64,000 nt of DNA from Saururus chinensis (taxonomy: Eukaryota; Streptophyta; Magnoliopsida; Piperales; Saururaceae), in NCBI GenBank assembly GCA_035235625.1, contig CP141143.1, forward strand, positions 5,066,501-5,130,500, read 5' to 3'. The position numbers were made by a program, and so were the translations under genes. The notes beneath the pieces are model-generated. The model was not told the DNA's origin, made no database searches, and saw nothing but the letters and a program-made list of their open reading frames with translations. Within the stretch, counting starts at the first letter, position 1, and every line of letters starts with the position of its first letter. Of the stretch, positions 5,656 to 47,202 are shown one piece after another.

Positions 5656-6161
5656 TGATGGAGGAGAATATTTTGGTTAAATGTGTATAATTAATTAAAT
5701 ACCCTTAGATATCACTGAAAGCCAAAAAAGTCTAAGAGTCGACAATGATGTTTTGGCCATTACATATCACTGGGATTCTTCTGATTAATGGAAACAAAAG
5801 CTTGTGCTCCCGCCAAAACTCTTCCATTGGAGATACATCGTGGATGTCAACTATAAATACCAAAGCTCAAGAGGGAAAATGGGGTCTGGCATTTTGAATT
5901 TGAAGGAACTCCGTCAATTTTGGATTTGGGAAGAATGAGTTCTGCTCTTGTGGATTCAAGAGACTAAAACTTGTGGTTTCAAGTTGTAAGTTTGTTTGTT
6001 TGAATGGACAGTTTGCTCAATCGATTTGTTTTTGTATTTGGTTGAATTCTGTACTGGCAGCCCGCTAAGGGTTTGAAAAAATTCCTGCTATTCTTCTATT
6101 GGTTTAGCTAGTTAATTGTTTTGAAGAAATTCTTGTGTAATTGTGCTTCCGAGTTGCATCA
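5656..6161 (+). mobile_element. 3' LTR of the decayed gypsy element
   Basis: A polypurine tract (AAAGGGGG, 5648-5655) directly precedes TGATGGAGGA, and the segment ends TTGCATCA, giving TG...CA termini and 506 bp. A TATA-box candidate TATAAATA sits at 5852-5859. The matching 5' LTR is not in the window, so the right boundary rests on the terminal dinucleotide only. Confidence 0.7.
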
Positions 6162-6380
6162 AAAGGTGACATTTGTTTTTTAACACCAGAAAGTAGTTTA
6201 AACCATGATGATAAGAATTGCTTATTTGAGAAGGACAATGATATTTTTACACACTATTTTTTTACATCCTGACACATTAGATAATTGTAGGTAAGACCTG
6301 TGATTTTCCGTTCAAGAAGGCACCTAAAAGAGGCAAACCGTAAAGCAGACAAACGTGTGCCAACCACCCATTCTCGCCAG

Positions 6381-8743
6381 TCATGCATATGGCTCACGAG
6401 ACGACCTTCTCTTTCTTGTTTCTGATGAGGTGGGCACTACCTCCTCATGGGTGCTCCCCTCCTGCCGTACTATACCATCAGTGTAATCTGTTCCTACTGT
6501 TACATCTTCTTTGCCCTCGTCATCCAGCAGGATGGACTGTTGGTAGAATTTAACGACCACAATCAAGATGAAGACTGCAGCGGAAGCAGGATCAAGATAA
6601 AAAGTTGCAGTACAGAGCTGTAAAGAATTGTGATATCCGACCGAGAGAAGAAAATTTAATTTACCGGCCCATATTCGAGCAATAACAGAAGACAAGTTCC
6701 AGATGACAGTAAAAACTGCAGCAGCTACAGCCTTTTTGTGAGTGCAAGAATCCCAGGCGTCGCGAAAGCGTCTGATCCAAAACTTCCCTGCAAATGTCAA
6801 TGGCCAGTTTCTTATGATCACAGTCGTTAAGCAAGACGACCCCACTAGCTTAATTTGTGGTCATTCTGTTTACCGTAAGCAGACAGTTGAGTAGAATACG
6901 CTCGGTATATTTTCGGAATGGTGAAGGCGCCGAAAAATGCTGCAGACGACCAGGCAAAGTACGCATTTCAGTTTTACCTTGACTTATCAAGTGATAATTC
7001 AAAACTGTTCATCGGTTCTAAAGGAAAAACGAAAGGCAACACTGATTTTTGTTCCTTCCTCTGGACTAAATTTGGTTACAATTAGCTTACCCAATTTGGT
7101 CATAGCCCAGATGGTGATGGAGCTTCCACAGCGAGCCAAAATATACAAGACTATCGCCAACTGCGACGCCCAAAGTAAGCTTACAATCTTAAGAAAGTAG
7201 AAAATTAGAGTTTCACAGATCAACAGAAGTACAACAGTCGTAAATTACCTTGACGGTTGTTGCTGGGTCGCCCGAGAAAAGGGTTTTGAGTGTGAGCAGA
7301 ATCTCATTCAAGTAAGGGAGGATCATTCTCACCAGCCATATTGCTTCTCTTTCGCCTATCATGTTCTTATGTAATTCCTCAAAGTCTGCAGTTCCCCTGT
7401 TAATTTATATGAGCAAAAGAAATAAAAGGTCAGGATGGTTACACAAGCAACATTCAGATTTTTTTACGCTAGCTGTAGTTTACCTCAACAGAATCGATCT
7501 ACGGATAAAAGCTACGGAGAGATATATCAGGCCCATGTAGGAAATTACTGAAACAAAGCTGCACCCAGTAAGACGTTCTCAAAAGAATTAGACGTTTGTT
7601 TTCTGCTGTCACCTGGGTCAAACTCTCTTCTCTGTCTGATCATAAAATTTCTAACCTGAAGTTGAGATCCTCGGCAAAGGAGGAAGAAATTATGATGAAT
7701 GACCCGAACCCGAACATCAATGCTGACTTTGAAATGTCTTTCCACATTACTAGATCGACTGAATTTGAAAATAATAAAAAAAAAAAGATTTAATTACAAG
7801 ACGAAGATCACGTCAGACCAAGCTGAATTACACTTGTAACTCATCTGACTCACCCAAGGTTTGCATCTTGCTCTGTATCTCTGATTTGCTCACAAATGAA
7901 TCTTCCTCGGCAAAAACTAGAAGCAGAAGGGAGAAATTGAATTATCAACTGTAGAATAGGACATGTCAAGCTGAATTGCGTTTAAAATTCTAGAAACTTA
8001 CCCCAATTTTCCGCCTCAGTTTCTACCGTGAGTTTGTTCTCGCATGCTTCTTCCGCGACAGGAGCTGAAAACAGGATAAGAAGATTAAGAATTGATGAAG
8101 AGTCTCAGATTCAACTATTCATTTCAGTTAGGAGAAGAAAAAATTCGGTGTTCTTACTCGGAGTTGGTGGTGGTTTTACAAGATCTCGATCAACAGATGG
8201 ATGTTCCACCGTCGTTAATGGCTCCTTGCTTGCAGTTGGCGGGATCTCGAAAGGAACATGATCCTGCTCCACTTCCATCACCGAATTCATTTCCTTCACA
8301 TCATATTTGTCTGCCTCTTTCTCTTCTTCCAAGGCTTCCCCTTCCTCCTCCTCCTCCTCCTCTTCTTTTTCGTTGCCTTCATCTTTCACCGAAGTGCTTG
8401 GTCTCGTTTGAGCCGCATTGCTCAGTGTGTTTGGAATTTTGTTATCCCTGCAGACAATTAATGCTTTACAATGCTCCTCAGAAGCAGAAACTCTTTGTGA
8501 ATCCGATCTCGTCTTCCTCAGCTGATTTGGGAATTCATTCCCTTCAGGTCTCTGTGTCCTCCTTCCAACAACTACATCGCTCTGGTTTCGCTTCATCCGG
8601 CGATGGGAATTATCTTCTTCCTGAATGTCGGCGCCATTCAATACCTTGATCCTTCCCTTCCCTTGGTCAAGCTTCGTGCGACTATTCCACCCTGGAGCGG
8701 TTCCATCCCTAGGCCTCGTCCGCTCCTTTCTTCCCACCGGCAT
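6381..8743 (-). CDS. RTNLB21-like: Reticulon-like protein, B21 type, 10 exons, 496 aa
   Basis: Endoplasmic-reticulum membrane protein whose reticulon homology domain is expected to bend or tubulate ER membrane. Exons, 5' to 3': 8743-8158, 8064-8002, 7916-7854, 7758-7656, 7558-7484, 7396-7249, 7160-7091, 6939-6874, 6787-6665, 6574-6381. All introns are GT-AG and phases agree throughout. The long N-terminus (about 237 aa) is basic near its start (NSRTKLDQGKGRIKVLNG) and has a Glu-rich tract (8335-8375). The reticulon domain runs from about residue 238 (VDLVMWKDISKSAL) to 447 (VVVKFYQQS) with two long hydrophobic regions. The motifs LARCGSSITIW and RFRDAWDSCTHKKAV are those of the long plant RTNLB17-22 subgroup. 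The last 50 residues end in an Arg-rich tail. Exon 5 uses the TGCAG acceptor at 7559-7563; the nearer TTTCAG would break the frame. Subfamily number is from memory; family is certain. Confidence 0.93.
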
Positions 8744-29384: not shown

Positions 29385-32300
29385 ATGGCGAGTACCACGA
29401 TTTTACCCGAAACTATGATGTCGGAATCCGGATTATCACTTTCCACTCCCAAAGACTTTCCCTTTCAGCGCCGGATAGAGTTCCTTCCCGCGAGGAAACC
29501 ATTCGATCCCTATTCGTCGACTTCCAATGGCGATTTCCGGCTGGAAACGCTGAATCCCGGCGCCGGTTGTCAAACGCCTGTTTCTGTCGGTGCCGCCTGC
29601 CCACCCGCGAAGAAATCCGATGGGGCAGGGGAGCTCGTGGAGCTCGGATTGGACCCGGAGCTTGACTTTGGAATTACGTTTCGGAGGATCGTAAGTGAAC
29701 TTTTGCTTCATTCCTTTTCGTGCCTTGTTGATTCAATATCTTTTCTATGGTTAATATATTATTTCTATAAGTTTTTTTCTTTTTATGTTTATAAGTCGTT
29801 GTCAGATTGCATTAATCGCCCTATTTTCGTTTTGGTCATGGCATATTGCTAAAATATTGAATTTTTTTTCATGAAAGTGTATTATTGTGGAATGTTTGAC
29901 AGGGTGCGGGATTGGCTAATCTGGGTAACACTTGCTTTCTCAATTCGGTTCTGCAATGTCTGACTTACACGGAGCCTTTTGCAGCTTATTTGCAGAGCGG
30001 GAAACATAAAACTTCTTGTGAGTGTTTTCGTTAGTCTCTTCGTGCTTACTGTCTACCCTAAAAGAATTGTAATTTAGATGGTGTTTATGAAGATTTAGAC
30101 ACAAATGCATATGTATTGTATAGGTACACCACTACATCTGCATGCGCTGTATGCTGTAATGTTAAGGGCAGAGGATTTGAGCCTTCACGCTGTGCAAATT
30201 TTTTTCACATTGAAAATAATTGGTTACTAGTGCACAAACGCAGAATTTTTTTTGTTTCAGAATTGACAGACTTATCGACTGGGCATGTGGATTGAGCCTA
30301 GAAGTTTGAGTGAGTCCACAACGTATTACCCACTTGCCACAGGTGTATTACTGTTGTATGGTCGATTACTGGCAGTTGGGCCCCCAATCTAAAACGGTCT
30401 TAGTATTTCCCCATTACCTGTCGTACAAAATTGGTTAGTTAAGCCCCAGCATATGGGCCATTTTTATATAGGCAGTTGGAGATATTTTCTATTTGTTTGC
30501 ATGAGGCAACTCTATCTAGTTTGAATTATATGGGTACAGTTTGTCCATGTGATATGATAGTTGTGTTTAGCACGCCCTTTCATTTTTGCCTAATATTTTA
30601 TAGACTTGCTGGCTTCTAAGGCTTGGATATTTGTGACTTTTTTTTTTGGTTTTTGAAGGTCGTACTGCAGGGTTTTGTGCGTTGTGTGCCATTCAGAATC
30701 ATGTAAAAAATGCACTACAATCTACTGGGAAAATATTGTCTCCATCACATCTAGTAAAAAACTTACGATGTATCCTTTGGAATTAACTATCACCAGCTCC
30801 TTTCCAACAGATTGGATTATTTCTGTAGATAATATCATCTTTGAAAATATTAAGTGATACTTGACGAAATAAATAGGCATTTCTCGTAATTTCCGCAATT
30901 GCAGACAGGAGGATGCCCATGAACTAATGGTTAACTTGCTTGAGTCCATGCATAAGTGCTGCTTGCCCTATGGTGTGTCGAGTGAATCTCCTACTGCATA
31001 CGAGAAAAGTCTGGTCCATAAAATATTTGGCGGCAGTCTGAGGAGTCAGGTGAGCATTCTAGAATTATAAGCAGTTTGTTATTGAAGTTTATGGTAAACT
31101 TCATCATTGACAAAATCTTAGAAGCATCTTTCTTGATCTTTAAGGCCGTCCATGCCTGGGTTGCAGGTGAAATGTATGCAATGCTCCTACTGTTCTAACA
31201 AGTTCGATCCTTTTCTGGATTTAAGCTTGGAAATTTTGAGAGCAGATTCATTGCGCAAGGCACTCGCACATTTCACTGCTGAAGAGCAATTAGATGGTGG
31301 TGAAAAGCAATATCAATGCCAGCGATGCAAACAAAAAGTTCGGGCCCTGAAGCAACTTACAGTCTACAAGGCCCCATATGTCCTCACCATCCATCTAAAG
31401 AGATTTGGCTCTCATAATCCTGGACAGAAAATTGATAAGAAAATTGAGTTTGCTCCTTCCTTGGACTTGAAGCCATTTGTTAGTGGTCCTCATGTGGGTA
31501 TAGGTTCCTCCTTTGTTATCAAATATGCAACTGGATTTTTTTGGGTGCTCTATTGAGTCATATTCATTTGTAGGACGGAGATTTGAGGTACACTCTCTAT
31601 GGTGTCTTAGTTCATGCCGGATGGAGTACCCATTCTGGCCACTATTATTGTTTTGTCCGTACTTCCAGTGGGATGTGGTACACTCTTGATGACAACCGTG
31701 TATGTTGAAATATCTTTCTCTGTCCATACTTTATTTGCAACATATTCTGTTCATTAAACTAAAAAATTCAATTGGGTTTAACTTTCAGGTTTTCCAAGTA
31801 AGTGAGAAGACTGTATTGCAACAGAAGGCATATATGCTGTTTTATGTTCGAGATCGAAGGATCTCGGCTGCTAAGGTAACAGTTGATAAGGTAAGGAATG
31901 AAAACATGTCCAGAATAGTTGATGAACAAGTGCGTCCTGCTACTACTATGGATTCAAAGCAAACAAGTCAACATGGTCCGACAAATAATACAATCAGGAC
32001 AGAGCCCATGACATCAAGCAACCATCAAGCCCCTCGTGGCTGTTCAGCATTACCAGCAAACACTTCAGTTAAGGACATATTGTTAAAAGATACCACTTCT
32101 TTAGAATCTGTTAGCCAGGTTGTGAAGGAGTCAGAAAATTCCAAAGGCCTCTCCGTCAAGCATTTGCTACCAAAGAAGGAGCTTTCGTCAAAGCAATTTC
32201 ATCCAGAAGAGCATATTTTAAAGGATGCTGTATTGAAGGATGCAATTTCTTCAAAAAAGGGGCGTGGAAAGGAGCAAGTGGCTCAAGAGACTGCTGATAA

Positions 32301-36100: not shown

Positions 36101-36490
36101 CTCATATGTCGGGCTGCAAACGGGTCGGGCCTTGACTGGCCAAGGGTAGCCCAGGCCCAGCCTGAAAAATTAAGCCAAAAAATCAGGCCCGGCCTGTAGT
36201 CGGGCCGGGCCGGGCCACGGGCTTACGGGCCAGATGCCCCGGTCCTCCTCCCATCCCTCCGCCGCTCCTCCCATCCCTCTGCCGGTACTTTTCCCAAATT
36301 CTTGGCATCCTCCTTCGATCGCTTCCTCGCCCAGGCCAACTCCTCTTCTGTCTGTCAGATCGATCCATTCCAGGAAACAGGAAACAGGAAACCGGCTACC
36401 ACCTTCCGCCCCAAATTTTGCGGGAGTACGACCTGTGGAAAATTTGATCATCCTCGCCCCAACTGTAGGCTTGCACTCCGGGGATTGACG

Positions 36491-36634
36491 TTCAGAGCAC
36501 CCGTGCTAGAGGTGTATGCCATGACAGAGGCTTCTCGCCAGATGGCCTTGAATCCACTGTCGAAGGACGAGTTGCACAAGGCTGGAGTGGTAGGGAGGCC
36601 AGTCGGGCCGGAAATGGCGGTTCTGAGGCAAGGG
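36491..36634 (+). pseudogene. Captured fragment of an oxalate-CoA-ligase-like (AAE3) acyl-CoA synthetase
   Basis: One open frame reads APVLEVYAMTEASRQMALNP followed by an HKAGVVGRPVGPEMA block. This corresponds to the adenylate-forming enzyme motif around Y-x-M-T-E-A and the following G-x-V-G-x-P-V-G segment, as in plant AAE3 / 4CL-like 9 proteins. About 48 codons are present. There is no start, no remainder of the enzyme and no ATP-binding P-loop, so it cannot be catalytic. It sits inside the hAT element, which implies transduplication from a gene elsewhere. Family assignment is from recognition of the motif only. Confidence 0.75.
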
Positions 36635-36713
36635 AGTTGTCGGAGAGGGAGAGGACACAGATGCTCCATGAAAGGCCCCCATAGTCGCCCAGTTTGGCTC
36701 TGCAATCGGATCC

Positions 36714-37075
36714 ATGGGGGCTTGCATGTCTTCCCACTCTGCTGCCTACCGCCTGGGGGCGCAGTGCCGGCCGGGCTCTGCCGCCAGGCCCGGGTCCTTG
36801 CTGCCGTTCGACTCACTGCGGGCACTTTCCAGGCACTGGAGCACTAGGAGGAGGAAGAAGCTCGAAGCCGGGAGCCAGAGGGGAGCGGGTTGGGGTCTCG
36901 TGGATTTGAGGTCTCTTTTGAAACCGGCAGCTTTGGGGACGACGAGCTCCACAGGGTCCCCGGACGGATGTTCGCTAATGGGTCCAGTTCTGTGGCCTGC
37001 TTGTACACCCAGCAGGGGAAGAAAGGGACCAACCAGGATGCCATGCTCGTTTGGGAGGTTGGACCTTTTGGACCT
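36714..37075 (+). pseudogene. Captured first-exon fragment of a plant PP2C protein phosphatase
   Basis: Begins with ATG and MGACMSSHS, the usual myristoylation-like start of many plant PP2Cs. After a frame change near 36890 it continues to LHRVPGRMFANGSS and YTQQGKKGTNQDAMLVWE, the conserved N-terminal substrate of the PP2C fold including the first metal-binding region. The sequence stops before the DGHG motif, so no active phosphatase can be made. The frameshift and missing body show that it is a fragment. It lies directly downstream of the acyl-CoA synthetase piece in the same transposon. Confidence 0.82.
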
Positions 37076-37434
37076 GGCTTTGATTCTTGGTCGAGTTGGA
37101 GAGCCGGACACCGGGAAGCCGGGAAGCCAACGAGTTGCACTTGGGGCGGCGGAGGACTCTGGAGATTGGAGTTAGGGTTATGGTTGGTTGAAGTAACGAA
37201 GTGAAGAGCGGCGAGGACAGTGATAAACAGCTGGCTTATTTTACGGGCCGGGCCGGGCTTTTTTTTTTTTTGCCCAGGCCCGAGCCTGGCCCGATTTGTA
37301 ACAGGTTTTTAAATATAAGGCCCAGCCCGATCTGTTGCAAATAATTTTCGGCCCAAACCCGAATATTTACGGGCCGGGCTAACGGGCCGGCCCGTAGTTA
37401 GCCCGGCCCGTAAATTTGCAGCCCTACTCATATG

Positions 37435-38128: not shown

Positions 38129-41100
38129 ATGAGGATCGTTGACGTTCTTAACGAAGACGGCAGCATGCCGTCGGAGACTCTCGGAAGAAGAAGTGAGGAA
38201 AAATCTTCTCTTTTGTCTTCCTCGCCAAGGTTTCTTCTTTCCCGACTGCTGGCGTCGATCAAGCCGAGTAAGAAGGCGGGTGTAGGCACTGATCTGATCG
38301 TACAGGTTGAGTCGGCTGATCGTATTCACGCCATTGTTGGGTGTTCTCATCGTGGTTGTCCGGGAAATGATGAGATGGGCAGTGGGTCCGGGGGGATTGT
38401 CCATGGGCTGAAGAGGTTTTGGAAGAACAAATGTTTCCGGTTACCGAAGCTGAATTTCCTGAAGAGTGGCCAACTTTATGGGCTTATGAGTGATAAGCAT
38501 GATGACCAAGCCTTGCCTTCAAAAGTTATTTGTGAAAGGACTGAACCCACCTTCCAGAATAGCTTCCAGAGTTGGGAGAATGATTCATCCGATTACCCCA
38601 TGGCTCCCTGTTCAAAATCTACTCAGACATCTAGCCCATCAGGTATATCTTATGTTCTATTGCCAAAAAAAAGCAAACTCTCTTATGTGCTTATGAACTT
38701 CTTGTTGCGTTGGGTTCTCTTATCTCTTGTTTACTTCTTTAGTTTTTAAGTTTACTCCCACCGTACTTTACTGAAAGGTATAGCTTCCGTGAGTATGTGG
38801 ATATGTCTTCAGTTTCCTTACAATCATATTTTAGTCTTTGTTTTTTATACAAAACTGATATTCTTAGTCAAAACTATATATTTCACCATATAGCCCGTTA
38901 TTGGAGTCTGAATGAGATTCTCAAAGCTTTTGCCCCTCCCGAGCTCTGCAAGCTCTCCAAAAATTATAATAAGACTTCTTCCAATGCATTTTTATTCATA
39001 ATTAAATGCTCTAAGCACGTAATTCAAATTTTAAAAAATTCGTGATTTCTATTTCCTACATTCCGTAGTACAGCGTTCCTAGTTAACACTGGATCTGTTT
39101 TTCTCCAGGAGCTTTTCTAGAAGGTTCATCTTTCCACTTTGGCATTGGAGTTGGTTTAGCTTTCATTCTTGCTAATAACATGATGGAGTGCAACAAGATG
39201 GCGGAGTTGCGAAAGCAAATGGAAGTGTTGCTTAAAGACATAAAGTATGAAATATTGAAAAAGGAAGAAACTTATGAACTTACAAAAACATACATGAACC
39301 CATCTTATGCTGGTTCTTCTTCCAACATGTTAGTTGCTGAACTTCCGGCGTTTCATCCAAAATCTGGAAGTGAAAACAACATTGATAAATTGGAAGCCGA
39401 ACTTGAAGCCGAACTAGAACTGCTACAGCTGAACATTGAAGGTGAAAATTGGGAGCGTCCTGTGCAAGAGTTCACGGAGGTATGATTTTATTTAGTGTTC
39501 ATTTTATGAGGTGACGATGAAATTAAATGGCTTTCTAGTACAACTTTGTACTGATAGTCCATCATTATTTGTGGACTTAATATGATCGTGCTTATACCCA
39601 CATTTTGCTGTTATTGGGATTTTTCAAAAAACTTGGATGTGCGGTCAGATTTTAATTTAAATTATTTCAGTTGTCAATTCAAGAAGAAAAGTTTAGAAGT
39701 GTTACATTTGTTCTTTTTATCCTCAACTAGATAATATTATATCTTATTTAGGATGTGGCTTGACTCTTGAGTATCTTTATGTTCCTAAGCATGTATATTC
39801 TTCATATTTTTATTTGCACATCATTCTTCACAAATTCATAACCCTCTGTTCTTGTACATCTTTTGGATCACAAAAAGATCGTTTGAGCTTTTCTAGTTCT
39901 CTGTAATCTAAGTGGAGTTTTCAAGATGCTGTGCAGAATTTGTGAGTTATCTCCCAACCAAAGTTTCTATAATAAGATAGATGATAATTGTGATGATGAT
40001 GAGGAAGAGGAAGAGGAGTCGTTACATCCATGGATGTCCCTCTGAGCATGAAGATTGGAAAGGAATTTGTTTGTCAGTGTTTGTATGAGAGAGAGAAAGA
40101 TGCCAGTGGAAGCTGGTAGTGCTTTAAGGGTCAGCTAGGTAACCCCTCCCCCCCTTTCTCCGCCCCTTGTTTAATCATCGGATGGGTGCCCACAAGGCGA
40201 ATCGAAAGAGGACCATCAAACATAAGGGCCCACAAATTTTAGACCCATTTGTCGATTAGTAGCACGCCTCCCCCCCCCCCCAATCATAAAATCGGGGCTG
40301 AGATGAGGACACTTAATCTAGCTCAATCAAAGGGCAACTCACTCTAGCATCTCTCTCTCTCATGTATCCTTCTGTTGTCAAATGCTGCAAATTATGCTGT
40401 TGAGAGACCACGGCAAGTAATTGCGTAAGCAATAATGAAGCTCAATTGAAATGTTTGCATCATTCTGAATATGAAGTATATGGTCCTAAATAAGGCATTT
40501 CAGCACGCTCACTAAATTCAGCACCCACAAAGTTGTTGCCTGTTATGTGATCTTTTTAGTATAAAAGTGAAGCTGGGTTAGTAGGCACGGCATATAATGT
40601 CGTTCTCGTATTTGGTATTGACTTTCTTACCAAATCCGTGATAGGTTTGGTGAGGACAATTGAATTTGTAGTCAATGAGGTGATTTTTTTGGCGTGGCTA
40701 AATAGTGATGTTCATAAAGTAGTTGCTAAATATCTGCCATACTGTGCGTTTATTCGTATATTTTACTCTTTAAAGCTTTGAATTCAGTATACACTATCAT
40801 TTTAAATAGTGTATCTTGCATTGCCTCGTTTGTTTTATCAAAATTTAGAGACATTTCTCTTTTCCTTTTAGAAATTGCAGGTTAATATCGGGAGTATGGC
40901 TCCTCGTATAACTCAAGGTGGGAACTTCAGGGAGGTGGAAAGCTCTCGGGAGGAAGTTTGTACTGGGGATATTTATGGCGTTTCTCCATATGAACTGGAG
41001 AGAAAGTTGCATCAGCTTATAGAGACTAGACAGCAAGATCAAATCGTTGAGCTGGAATCTGCTCTGGAACGTGCTGAAAAATTGCTTCATGAGAAAGAAA

Positions 41101-44100: not shown

Positions 44101-44634
44101 GGTCTCTGTGTCCCTCTCTGAGTCTCTGCAAGACTGCAACTCTGAGTGTTTTTTTGTGGAGCAATTTAGCAACCATATGAAAGTTGGAGATACCCCCTCT
44201 ATCTAAGAGACAAAGGAGATACCTTTCAGTTGGTCTTTGTTTTGTCCTCGCCCATTCGCTAAAACCAGCACTCGTGAGCTCACGACCACTGCAAAATTTA
44301 CCCAAAAGGTAATCTCTGTTCTCACTTCTCAGGCTTGGCTAAATCACCTTCGCTTGCGTGGTGATTTTCAATTTCTGGGTCGGGCATATGGGTGTTCTTC
44401 TTCTGGGTTCCATGAAAGCCAATAAAAGTTTCTTCATTCAGTAGCCCAAAGCTCCCACCTTGTGTTTTTTTTCCTGCGAATGGCTGCTGTAGGATGGAGC
44501 ATTTTCGAGGAGTAAGTGTCGTTAGAGATACAAAACCTTTGTATCACGCCCCGGTGTCTTCTTGGTTGAGGAAAGTTCGGGAGAAGAGACATTTGGGTGT
44601 TCTTCCTTTTTCAATCGCCATCCATTTTTCTGAG
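41163..44634. other. Intergenic sequence and 5' leader of the receptor kinase gene
   Basis: No gene recognised. A GACCCGAACCCGA/GGTCAGGTCAAG-rich AT-interrupted segment at 41620-41935 resembles 35750-35925 and may be a decayed transposon. The last 300-500 bp probably hold the promoter and leader of the LRR kinase, possibly with a leader intron. Confidence 0.5.
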
Positions 44635-47202
44635 ATGGGGATTCGTTTGCTTGGTCGGTTTTTAGCTTTGGCTCTCTTGTTTGAGCTTTCGGTGTCTCAG
44701 CAACCTAACACCGATGACTTCTTCGTCTCAAACTTCCTGCAGAAACTGAGTCCTTTATCGTCGGAATACGATTTCTCATCACCTGTCTGTTCATGGGAAG
44801 GAGTTTTTTGTGATTCCCAGGGACATGTCACACAGTTGGGATTCTCTGCTTTGGGCCTCTCTGGTCTGATTCCTGAAAACAGCATTGGTAAGCTGACCAA
44901 GCTTCAATCTTTAGACCTCAGCAATAACAAAATAGCTGGTGTTTCGTCTGATTTTTGGAGCCTTGGTCCCACTCTCAGGAGCCTCAACCTCTCTTGCAAC
45001 AGGATTAATGGCACTCTCGCAAACAATCTGGGCAACTTTGGGCTGTTGGAGCACCTCGACTTGTCCTGCAACAACTATTCTGGTAGCATACCCGAGGCTA
45101 TTAGCTCCACTTCAGCTCTGCAGCTCCTCAATCTCAGTGGAAACAGTTTCGAAGGGGAAATTCCAGCTGTGATTATAAACTGCAAATCTCTGGTTTCCGT
45201 GGATCTCTCGTCCAATCGGCTTACTGGAACCATTCCGGAAGGGTTTGGAGCTGCTTTTACAGAGTTGAGAGAGCTGAATCTTGCTGGGAACGGGCTATAT
45301 GGTAGCATTTCTGAAATTTCGGGCCTGAGGTCCTTAAGAAATTTAAATCTCTCTGCAAATGCGTTCATGGGTTCTGTGAAGAGTGCTTTTCAGCAGTCAA
45401 TGCAGATTTTAGATTTGCGCAAGAACCAGTTTCAAGGTCACATATCTCAGGTACATTTCAACTCAAGCTTTAACTGGTCTACAATGGTGTTCCTTGACTT
45501 ATCTGAAAACCAACTCAGTGGAGAAATATTCCTTGTCTTGGAGCAAGCTCAATCTCTTGTACATCTAAACCTTGCTCATAATAGATTTTCTCACCAAAAT
45601 TTCCCACAGCTAGAAAAACTTTCGAGTCTCAAGTATCTTAATCTATCAGGGACCAATCTTCAAGGCCCAATTCCTTTTGAAGTTTCAAAACTCGCTAACC
45701 TAACAACTCTAGACCTTTCTCAAAACCATCTTAGTGGTCATGTTCCTGATCTGAACGGCCATAACTTTCTTGTCCTTGACCTTTCCGTTAACAATCTTAC
45801 TGGCGAATTTCCATTACAGCTGATTCAGAAGCTTCCTGAAATGGAGAAGTACAACTTCTCCTACAATAACTTCACTCTCTGCGCTTCACGAATTTCCCCT
45901 GACACGTTCCGGTCGATCTTTTTCGGGTCCCAAGACAACTGCCCCATTGCTGCAAATCCTGGACACATCAGGAATAAAGGATCAAAACACAGGGGCCTCA
46001 AGCTTGCTCTGGCTCTAACCTTTTCCATATTTTGTTTAGCTGTGGGTTTCTTGTGTTTAGTATTTGCATGCCGAAGAAAGAGCAATTCCTGGACAGTTAA
46101 GCAAGTGCCCTACAACGAAGAGCCAAGCACATCTGGTCCCTACTCATTTCAGACTGATTCTACGACATGGGTGGCAGATGTTAAGAGTGCTACATCAGTC
46201 CCTGTGGTTATATTTGACAAGCCTTTGCTGAGTTTCACATTTGCAGATCTCTTATCAGTGACTTCCCATTTCGACCGAGGGACTCTATTGGCTGAAGGTA
46301 GGTTTGGGCCTGTTTACAGGGGCTTTCTACCTGGAGGGACCCATATTGCCGTCAAAGTCTTGGTACGAGGGTCCACCATGACTGACCAAGAGGCTGCCAA
46401 GGAGCTTGAATATCTGGGTCGGATCAAGCACCAAAATCTCGTTCCTTTGATCGGCTATTGCTTGGCTGGGGAACAGAGAATCGCAATCTATGAATACATG
46501 GAGAATGGGAACTTGCAAAATCTGCTTCATGATCTACCTTTAGGGGTCCCCCGTACTGAAGATTGGAGTACTGATACTTGGGAAGAGGATGGAAATGCTG
46601 GTCAGAGTCCGGCTATAACGTCATCAGAAGGACTAACAACTTGGGTGTTCAGACACAAAATAGCTCTTGGAACAGCTCGATCCTTGGCTTTTCTGCACCA
46701 TGGATGCTTCCCACAGATAATTCACCGAGATGTCAAGGCTAGTAGTGTTTATCTGGGTCCTGAATTGGAACCTAGATTATCAGACTTTGGGCTGTCAAAG
46801 ATCTTTGGAAGCAATCTTGCTGATGAACTGACGAGAGCATCATCTGGTTATACACCTCCTGAGCTGTCTAATGCCGATGAAATGGGGATTGCAACGTCCA
46901 AGTCAGATGTCTATGGATTCGGGGTTGTTTTGTTCGAGTTGATTACAGGGAAGAAACCGTTAGGAGATGAATACCCAGACGAAAAAGATGCCACATTAGT
47001 GAGTTGGATGAGGGCTTTGGTTAGGAAAAACCAAGGATCAAGAGCTATTGATCCAAAAATTCGTGCGACAGGATCAGAACAACAAATAGTGGAAGCTTTG
47101 AGAATTGGGTATCTGTGCACCGCTGATTTGCCTGCCAAGAGGCCAGACATGCATCAAATTGTCGGGTTATTGAAGGATATCGAGCCAGGGCATAGCCAGT
47201 GA
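44635..47202 (+). CDS. LRR receptor-like kinase, At2g24230 type, single exon, 855 aa
   Basis: Plasma-membrane leucine-rich-repeat receptor-like protein. The start at 44635 was chosen because it gives a clean signal peptide ([21 protein letters not shown]); the frame is open from 44494 but the extra 47 residues look like leader. The LRR N-terminal cap [14 protein letters not shown] is followed by about 13-14 repeats of the LxLSxNxxxGxIP type to about residue 430. A transmembrane segment lies near residues 454-481 ([20 protein letters not shown]), then the kinase domain from about 545. It has the glycine loop [16 protein letters not shown] lysine near 573, [11 protein letters not shown] near 697 and SDFGLSK near 717. 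The catalytic-loop Asn after HRDVK is Ser, and the APE motif reads PPE, so kinase activity may be reduced. Length and overall sequence match the At2g24230 subgroup (about 853 aa from memory). Confidence 0.93.

Follow-up and report, generated by a model that had tools for sequence, protein, structure and literature searches.

How cut-and-paste transposons take up pieces of genes is debated, with repair of a break by template switching set against the fusion of copies. In maize, two Ds2 and nine Ds-l4 elements with gene fragments appear in the available portion of the published account (PMC3260210). Pack-hAT elements have been reported from maize and rice, and the accessible text of that report favours the fusion of neighbouring insertions; in its section 9 a Pack-PIF cluster serves as an example of two genes gained stepwise, and similar hAT acquisitions are said to exist, with reference to its S5 Fig (PMC8903248). 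For the hAT Pack-TIRs of animals, gap-filling and template-switching models have been put forward, and in the part of the paper at hand these elements often show short microhomology and a bias to nearby donors (PMC8277862). An earlier note on the DNA treated here held that gene capture is much less described for hAT elements than for Pack-MULEs and Helitrons; as far as the available excerpts of four papers go, capture by hAT elements is documented better than that implied (PMC3260210, PMC2528002, PMC8903248, PMC8277862). Here we describe an element with pieces of two host genes in a window of 64,000 nucleotides from Saururus chinensis (contig CP141143.1, positions 5,066,501 to 5,130,500), together with the family to which it belongs.

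Results

The element and its neighbourhood

The non-autonomous hAT element is 1,318 bp long (36109-37426 of the window) and is bracketed by a perfect 8-bp duplication, CTCATATG, with 8/8 positions alike at 36101-36108 and 37427-37434. Its inverted repeats, TCGGGCTGCAAA and TAGGGCTGCAAA, agree at 11/12 positions; the end sequences read TCGGGCTGCAAACG on the left and, as reverse complement, TAGGGCTGCAAATT on the right, 11/12 alike over 12 bp. GC content is 58.9% inside the element against 36.8% and 42.4% in the 500-bp flanks. The exact duplication, the hAT-like ends and the GC-rich interior between AT-rich flanks that the earlier note had read from this DNA are all borne out. A blind scan of the window for perfect 8-bp repeats with inverted ends alike at ≥10/12 positions, 150-3000 bp apart, returned three pairs, among which 36109-37426 is the sole pair at 11/12 and the sole one with the family end. 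The window sequence by itself is only suggestive of an element; its status is settled because ends and target-site duplications (TSDs) recur in a genome-wide family. The parts of the element are listed here in window coordinates.

36101-36108, no strand: target-site duplication, left copy, CTCATATG (TSD comparison)
37427-37434, no strand: target-site duplication, right copy, CTCATATG (TSD comparison)
36109-37426, plus strand: non-autonomous gene-capturing hAT element (paired ends with TSD; 315 left-end sites; 3 further copies of the chimera)
36109-36120, plus strand: left terminal inverted repeat, TCGGGCTGCAAA; commonest family form TAGGGCTGCAAA (end comparison)
37415-37426, minus strand: right terminal inverted repeat, TAGGGCTGCAAA on the minus strand (end comparison)
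36109-36293, plus strand: backbone, left subterminal region with GGGCC-rich repeats, its start common to relatives with other cargo (alignment of relatives)
36294-36488, plus strand: further cargo in the same block as the AAE3 piece, no parent gene identified (likeness over 50-56 bp to repeat-like loci on C6, C5 and C4)
36489-36626, plus strand: captured piece 1, some 46 codons from within an exon of an AAE3-like acyl-CoA synthetase, without intron (82% over 138 bp to the C11 gene L026)
36627-36671, plus strand: backbone between the two captured pieces, ending CTCCATGA (alignment of relatives)
36672-36681, plus strand: filler AAGGCCCCCA at the left PP2C junction (alignment of carriers)
36682-37088, plus strand: captured piece 2, PP2C 5'UTR, exon 1 and start of intron 1 (93% over 408 aligned positions to C10:23286621-23287028)
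37089-37426, plus strand: backbone, right side and right subterminal region (alignment of relatives)

On one side the element has a ubiquitin-protease gene, with a UCH domain in 31152-31553 and a last exon placed by eye near 34.8-35.0 kb, and on the other an LRR receptor kinase gene (44494-47202), with an open frame at 38129-38749, assigned to no family, between that gene and the element. The element overlaps no identified exon, exons having been read from the sequence rather than from annotation.

The family across the genome

The left-end pattern, at ≤3 mismatches, occurs at 155 forward and 160 reverse sites of the 516-Mb genome, 315 in all, where the reversed pattern used as a control gives 0 sites at the same threshold. 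Among 40 loci scanned for ends and TSDs, 28 were element candidates; the other 12 are gene or repeat loci where no element was expected. Paired ends with TSDs were found in 24 of the 28 candidates, or 25 of 29 with the window; the flanking 8-mers of these 25 elements agree at 8/8 positions in 12 cases, at 7/8 in nine and at 6/8 in four. Among the 29 candidates, L022, L024, L037 and L038 show no paired ends with a TSD. The superfamily is thus seen in the 8-bp TSD (8/8 in the window) and in short terminal inverted repeats of hAT type, TAGGGCTGCAAA-like with variants in the window and 24 other loci, as compared with the hAT terminal-repeat consensus. These ends are similar to, and not the same as, the 11-bp Ac/Ds repeat, which we take to be C/TAGGGATGAAA.

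The flanks of L017 and L046 are 96-97% alike over 400 bp on both sides, and the two are one insertion copied within a local segmental duplication; of the 26 elements compared they are the only pair with junction flanks in common, and the 25 elements therefore represent 24 insertions. L046 lies at C4:28,263,959-28,265,407 and L017 at C4:28,289,583-28,291,025, about 26 kb apart, and L023, 50 kb beyond them on C4, has a different interior. On C7, L033 (C7:12,124,914) and a copy at C7:12,173,175 are separated by 48 kb, point the same way and have interiors 94% alike, either by local hopping or by another local duplication. L022 (C3:11.195-11.197 Mb) has two opposed left ends without a normal right end or a matching TSD, a structure as from an aberrant event.

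Members of the family have left and right ends in common and differ in their interiors. The two-gene chimera of the window has three further genomic copies, on C8 (91%), C3 (90%) and C6 (85%), the C6 copy being without part of the left cargo. All four loci have unrelated flanks, and their TSDs match at 8/8 in the window, C8 and C6 and at 6/8 in C3. Because the four differ in TSDs and flanks, the chimera has been mobile together with its cargo.

The AAE3-like piece

The two fragments that the earlier note had named, an AAE3-like acyl-CoA synthetase and a PP2C first exon in the same orientation, both lie on the plus strand, and both proved homologous to genes elsewhere in this genome. The first piece (36489-36626) encodes the run ..APVLEVYAMTEASRQMALNPLSKDELHKAGVVGRPVGPEMAVL and over 138 bp shares 82% identity with the central part of a large exon of L026, a gene on C11. 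The translated L026 exon matches the AMP-binding family (PF00501) at E=1.2e-68, and the window peptide matches the same profile at E=0.005, below the curated cut-off; we take the gene to be AAE3-like (oxalyl-CoA synthetase), the tests placing the piece in the AMP-binding family only. L043-L045 are more tandem copies of L026, and identity of the piece to these tandem genes is 81-82%, which singles out no donor copy among them; the capture is therefore older, or the donor has been lost. A second relative, L027 on C6, contains a stop. The right junction of the piece shows 3 bp of microhomology (TGA), read by eye.

Two loci, L030 (C5:36.12 Mb) and L031 (C4:24.80 Mb), have about 50 bp in common with window 36294-36488; they are longer repeats with direct repeats of about 340 bp on both sides, and seem, by eye, to carry 14-3-3-like and MA3-like stretches. 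A stretch at C11:32650176-32650389, about 54 kb from the AAE3-like tandem cluster, matches part of the L016 interior at 76% and was possibly part of the first capture.

The coding state of the piece was examined by a neutral test aware of sequence context, on 8 of 9 rows, L009 being dropped as nearly identical to the window. There were 35 synonymous, 55 non-synonymous and 0 stop changes, and the N/S ratio of 1.57 against an expected 2.02 (P=0.10) does not show selection. No stop occurs in the 8 rows against 2.8 in simulation (P=0.06), the simulation having also made more changes overall; this absence is a hint toward selection.

The PP2C piece and its donor

The second piece matches C10:23286621-23287028 at 381 of 408 aligned positions (93%). 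It consists of 32 bp of 5'UTR (36682-36713), exon 1 from the ATG at 36714 to 37057, and the first 31 bp of intron 1 (37058-37088), with its GT; because of this intron sequence, DNA and not mRNA was copied. The C10 donor is a gene with introns, whose exon 1 ends in ..LVWE with GT directly after, whose exon 2 follows the CAG at 5993 of L012rc and begins NFATRSDTIFCGVFDGHG, and whose joined exon translation matches PF00481 (PP2C) at E=4.4e-28. The open reading frames of the window give no PP2C match against Pfam, since the piece is exon 1, upstream of the best-matched stretch. A 1-bp deletion in a GAAA-CCGG stretch just after 36919 breaks the PP2C frame of the window.

At the left junction stands the filler AAGGCCCCCA, the final 1-2 bp of which may belong to the donor; in L011 the filler position ends in CG, as in the C10 donor. 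The right junction has 1 bp of microhomology (T), read by eye. Over the 8 kb covered, no family end at ≤1 mismatch lies near the C10 donor, from which the carrier pieces differ at 5.6-8.1% of positions. L018 (C1:49303154-49303504, 74%) was considered as a second intact donor and rejected, being decayed and matching the PP2C 5'UTR-exon 1 region only, with nothing else in the 8 kb covered that matches the donor locus.

Other interiors

Copies of the family with different cargo, which the earlier note had led us to look for, do occur. The subfamily of L017, L020, L032, L033, L034, L035 and L046 has an interior different from that of the AAE3 branch, and a piece of an HMA gene is found in eight loci (L017, L032-L035, L046, C7:12173396 and C5:8209986); L020 is without most of this piece, though it belongs to the L017-type subfamily. 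The donor gene at C1:3.602 Mb (L054) has a heavy-metal-associated domain (PF00403, 8.9e-13), and its match to PF00717 is below the cut-off of that profile. An apparent exon-exon join raised capture from RNA in this subfamily, which was rejected on alignments read for L033, L035 and L017: intron sequence is kept before the exon, and a deletion passes the next intron into the following exon. The intron sequence in the HMA piece therefore implies capture at the level of DNA here too.

Translation of nine open stretches in relatives whose interiors differ gave nothing over the Pfam cut-off, and below it an AMP-binding match in L016 and a DUF4679 match in L021. Source genes were not identified for the L021-, L016- and L023/L028-type interiors (L028 itself not being covered) or for window 36294-36488. 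The family has at least three gene donors: AAE3-like, PP2C and HMA.

The order of the captures

The site of PP2C uptake was aligned in 10 rows without PP2C and in the four carriers (window, L009, L010 and L011). All 10 non-PP2C relatives keep the site as it was before capture, with CTCCATGA, then 7 bp, then GGTCGA or a variant of it; GGTCGA is exact in L015, L019, L021, L022, L023 and L028, and has 1-3 changes in L013, L014, L016 and L025. In the four carriers CTCCATGA is followed by AAGGCCCCCA or a near form, the PP2C piece and then GGTCGAG (GGTTGAG in L011). The insertion thus cost the element 7 bp and brought about 10 bp of filler. The carriers form a clade with support of 100/100, and their PP2C pieces have seven changes against the donor in common, and the piece was therefore captured once. 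Five relatives (L013, L014, L015, L016 and L019) hold the AAE3 block without PP2C. As the AAE3-only relatives keep the site that PP2C replaced, these alignments place the uptake of AAE3 first and that of PP2C second. L013 has an extra 1.8-kb insertion (element positions ~720-2554) near the PP2C uptake site.

The AAE3-only element L016 lies at C10:23,359,665-23,361,359, which is 72.6 kb from the PP2C donor exon, and the chance that one of the five AAE3-only elements would lie that near the donor is about 0.14%, by an arithmetic made post hoc. By tree path L016 is also, narrowly, the non-carrier closest to the carriers (0.24, followed by L019 at 0.26), and has no support as their sister in the same tree. 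In the other subfamily, a hAT transposase remnant (PF14372), with an end ..TTGCAGCCCTA seen at one side, lies about 1 kb from the HMA donor gene; as a second case of proximity, this pair points the same way.

Transposase and candidate mobilisers

That the element contains no transposase, as the earlier note had stated, holds across the 26 elements tested, in none of which a tblastn search with a transposase of the family gave a match at E≤0.01. A search of the genome with the Dimer_Tnp_hAT profile scored 150 matches of 1,080 candidates, and at least seven of them, among the sites listed, have a left end no more than about 4 kb away, always on the opposite strand. Of these pairs, three were examined. 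The C2 element is 7,953 bp long, with TSD TGTATGGT (8/8) and ends matched at 11/12 positions, and its protein has zf-BED, hAT-like_RNase-H and Dimer_Tnp_hAT domains, all over the cut-off. The C9 element is 7,633 bp long, with TSD AGTGACGA (8/8); in the register of the family its right end falls one base short, and the element has a 707-aa open frame with the dimerisation domain, the sole domain scored there. For the third, L051 (C2:40.28 Mb), the far end was not found in the stretch examined. The likeness of the long C2 and C9 elements to the short family is confined to about 50-60 bp near the ends, with one further 60-bp stretch in L051; for this reason mobilisation by elements of the C2 and C9 type is something that we infer. 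In the long hAT element L049, reverse complement 5900-7301 (C2:54.627-54.629 Mb), there seems by eye to be an array of AT-rich repeats of about 100-120 bp upstream of the transposase.

Discussion

Taken together, we hold with high confidence that the element is of Pack-hAT type, presumably mobilised in trans, and that it acquired host DNA in steps as passengers. In the mechanism that we propose, a transposase recognising TAGGGCTGCAAA ends would move this non-autonomous element, and its source would be autonomous relatives, the C2 and C9 elements among the candidates. One branch of the family has the block holding the AAE3 exon fragment, and within that branch one lineage gained the PP2C piece a single time, in exchange for 7 bp and with about 10 bp of filler. 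The PP2C step was probably error-prone repair of a break inside the element, in which a nearby gene was copied, whether by template switching or by end joining with filler. The captured pieces would then be passengers without a coding role. The ordered series and the proximity of the donor favour repair inside the element for the PP2C step. Microhomology at the junctions is weak and counts on the other side. That the family as a whole captures genes near its copies (73 kb for PP2C, about 1 kb for HMA) by repair of internal breaks, and not by fusion of neighbours, is a tentative extension to which we give somewhat less than an even chance.

Among the alternatives, the one that fares best, though we think it improbable, is that the chimera might be transcribed and might silence or modulate its PP2C and AAE3 parents through putative small RNAs. 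Gene pieces carried by elements are plausible sources of small RNAs, the PP2C piece holds a 5'UTR and start codon at 93% to the gene, and across copies changes at C and G are commoner in CG and CHG contexts than in CHH, the pattern that methylated elements would give; the 82% identity to the AAE3-like gene, however, is low for small-RNA targeting. Less probable still is that the cargo came by fusion, in which two family copies flank host DNA, the outer ends move as a unit and the inner ends are lost. Such a model has been put forward for the Pack-TYPE elements of every DNA superfamily, with hAT among them, in the accessible text of its source (PMC8903248), and the C7 pair, 48 kb apart and alike in orientation and interior, provides two neighbouring copies of the family. 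For the PP2C step fusion of neighbouring elements is rejected, since both junctions lie inside one continuous backbone in which comparison with relatives shows the replacement of no more than 7 bp, and the piece has no inner end beside it; fusion could still account for other steps, the HMA piece with its donor 1 kb from a hAT remnant being one example. Least probable of all, and close to negligible, is a functional chimeric protein under selection, for although the AAE3 piece is free of stops in 8/8 rows and the L016 interior is crossed by a 342-residue open frame, the AAE3 ratio is near its context-corrected neutral expectation, the PP2C frame is lost to the deletion in the window, to a stop in L009 and, in L011, to a frameshift together with stops, so that L010 alone has it open, and no peptide or open reading frame tested from the window has a Pfam match over cut-off in the element. 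Repair inside a trans-mobilised element, with its cargo as passengers, thus stays our preferred reading.

If the extension to the family as a whole is true, the family would offer a natural series (empty site, filler, one-gene and two-gene forms) for testing how cut-and-paste transposons take up genes. It provides ordered forms, an identified donor and a kept pre-capture site, and these are what telling the models apart needs.

Comparison with known systems

The element fits the Pack-TYPE definition as given in the available text of PMC8903248, being a non-autonomous element with terminal inverted repeats, captured coding DNA, and the TSD and repeats of its superfamily. The host coding DNA has identifiable donors, PP2C on C10 at 93% and AAE3-like on C11 at 82%. 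Where that paper, in the portion available, favours fusion, the PP2C junctions here fit repair of an internal break better (PMC8903248). Ds2 and Ds-l4 of maize, in the available account, are likewise non-autonomous hAT elements with 8-bp TSDs, common ends and variable filler, and in Ds2-22 and Ds-l4-354 some of the filler comes from host genes, introns included, as it does here; they differ in their ends, family and host, and that text names one donor gene each for Ds2-22 and Ds-l4-354, whereas here two genes were taken up in an order that can be read, with the pre-capture site kept (PMC3260210). Hatvine-6 of grapevine is also a hAT family with common ends and a variable inside, often of genic and non-genic host DNA; its members, as the accessible text describes them, have transposase coding sequence in common, whereas the 26 elements tested here carry none (PMC2528002). 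The animal Pack-TIRs, Pack-hAT-N8_XT included, resemble the present element in having host DNA at an internal breakpoint of a hAT element, and include a multicopy case with distinct TSDs, as here; the part of the paper at hand gives only four multicopy cases among them, whereas the plant family here is multicopy and has drawn on at least three donor genes (PMC8277862). We found no published description of the present family in a literature that is not searchable by its sequence or name. The element is otherwise ordinary, with passenger gene pieces on which selection is not shown, and gene capture by hAT elements is already known; what the present case adds is that the order of the steps can be read and that one donor gene is in hand.
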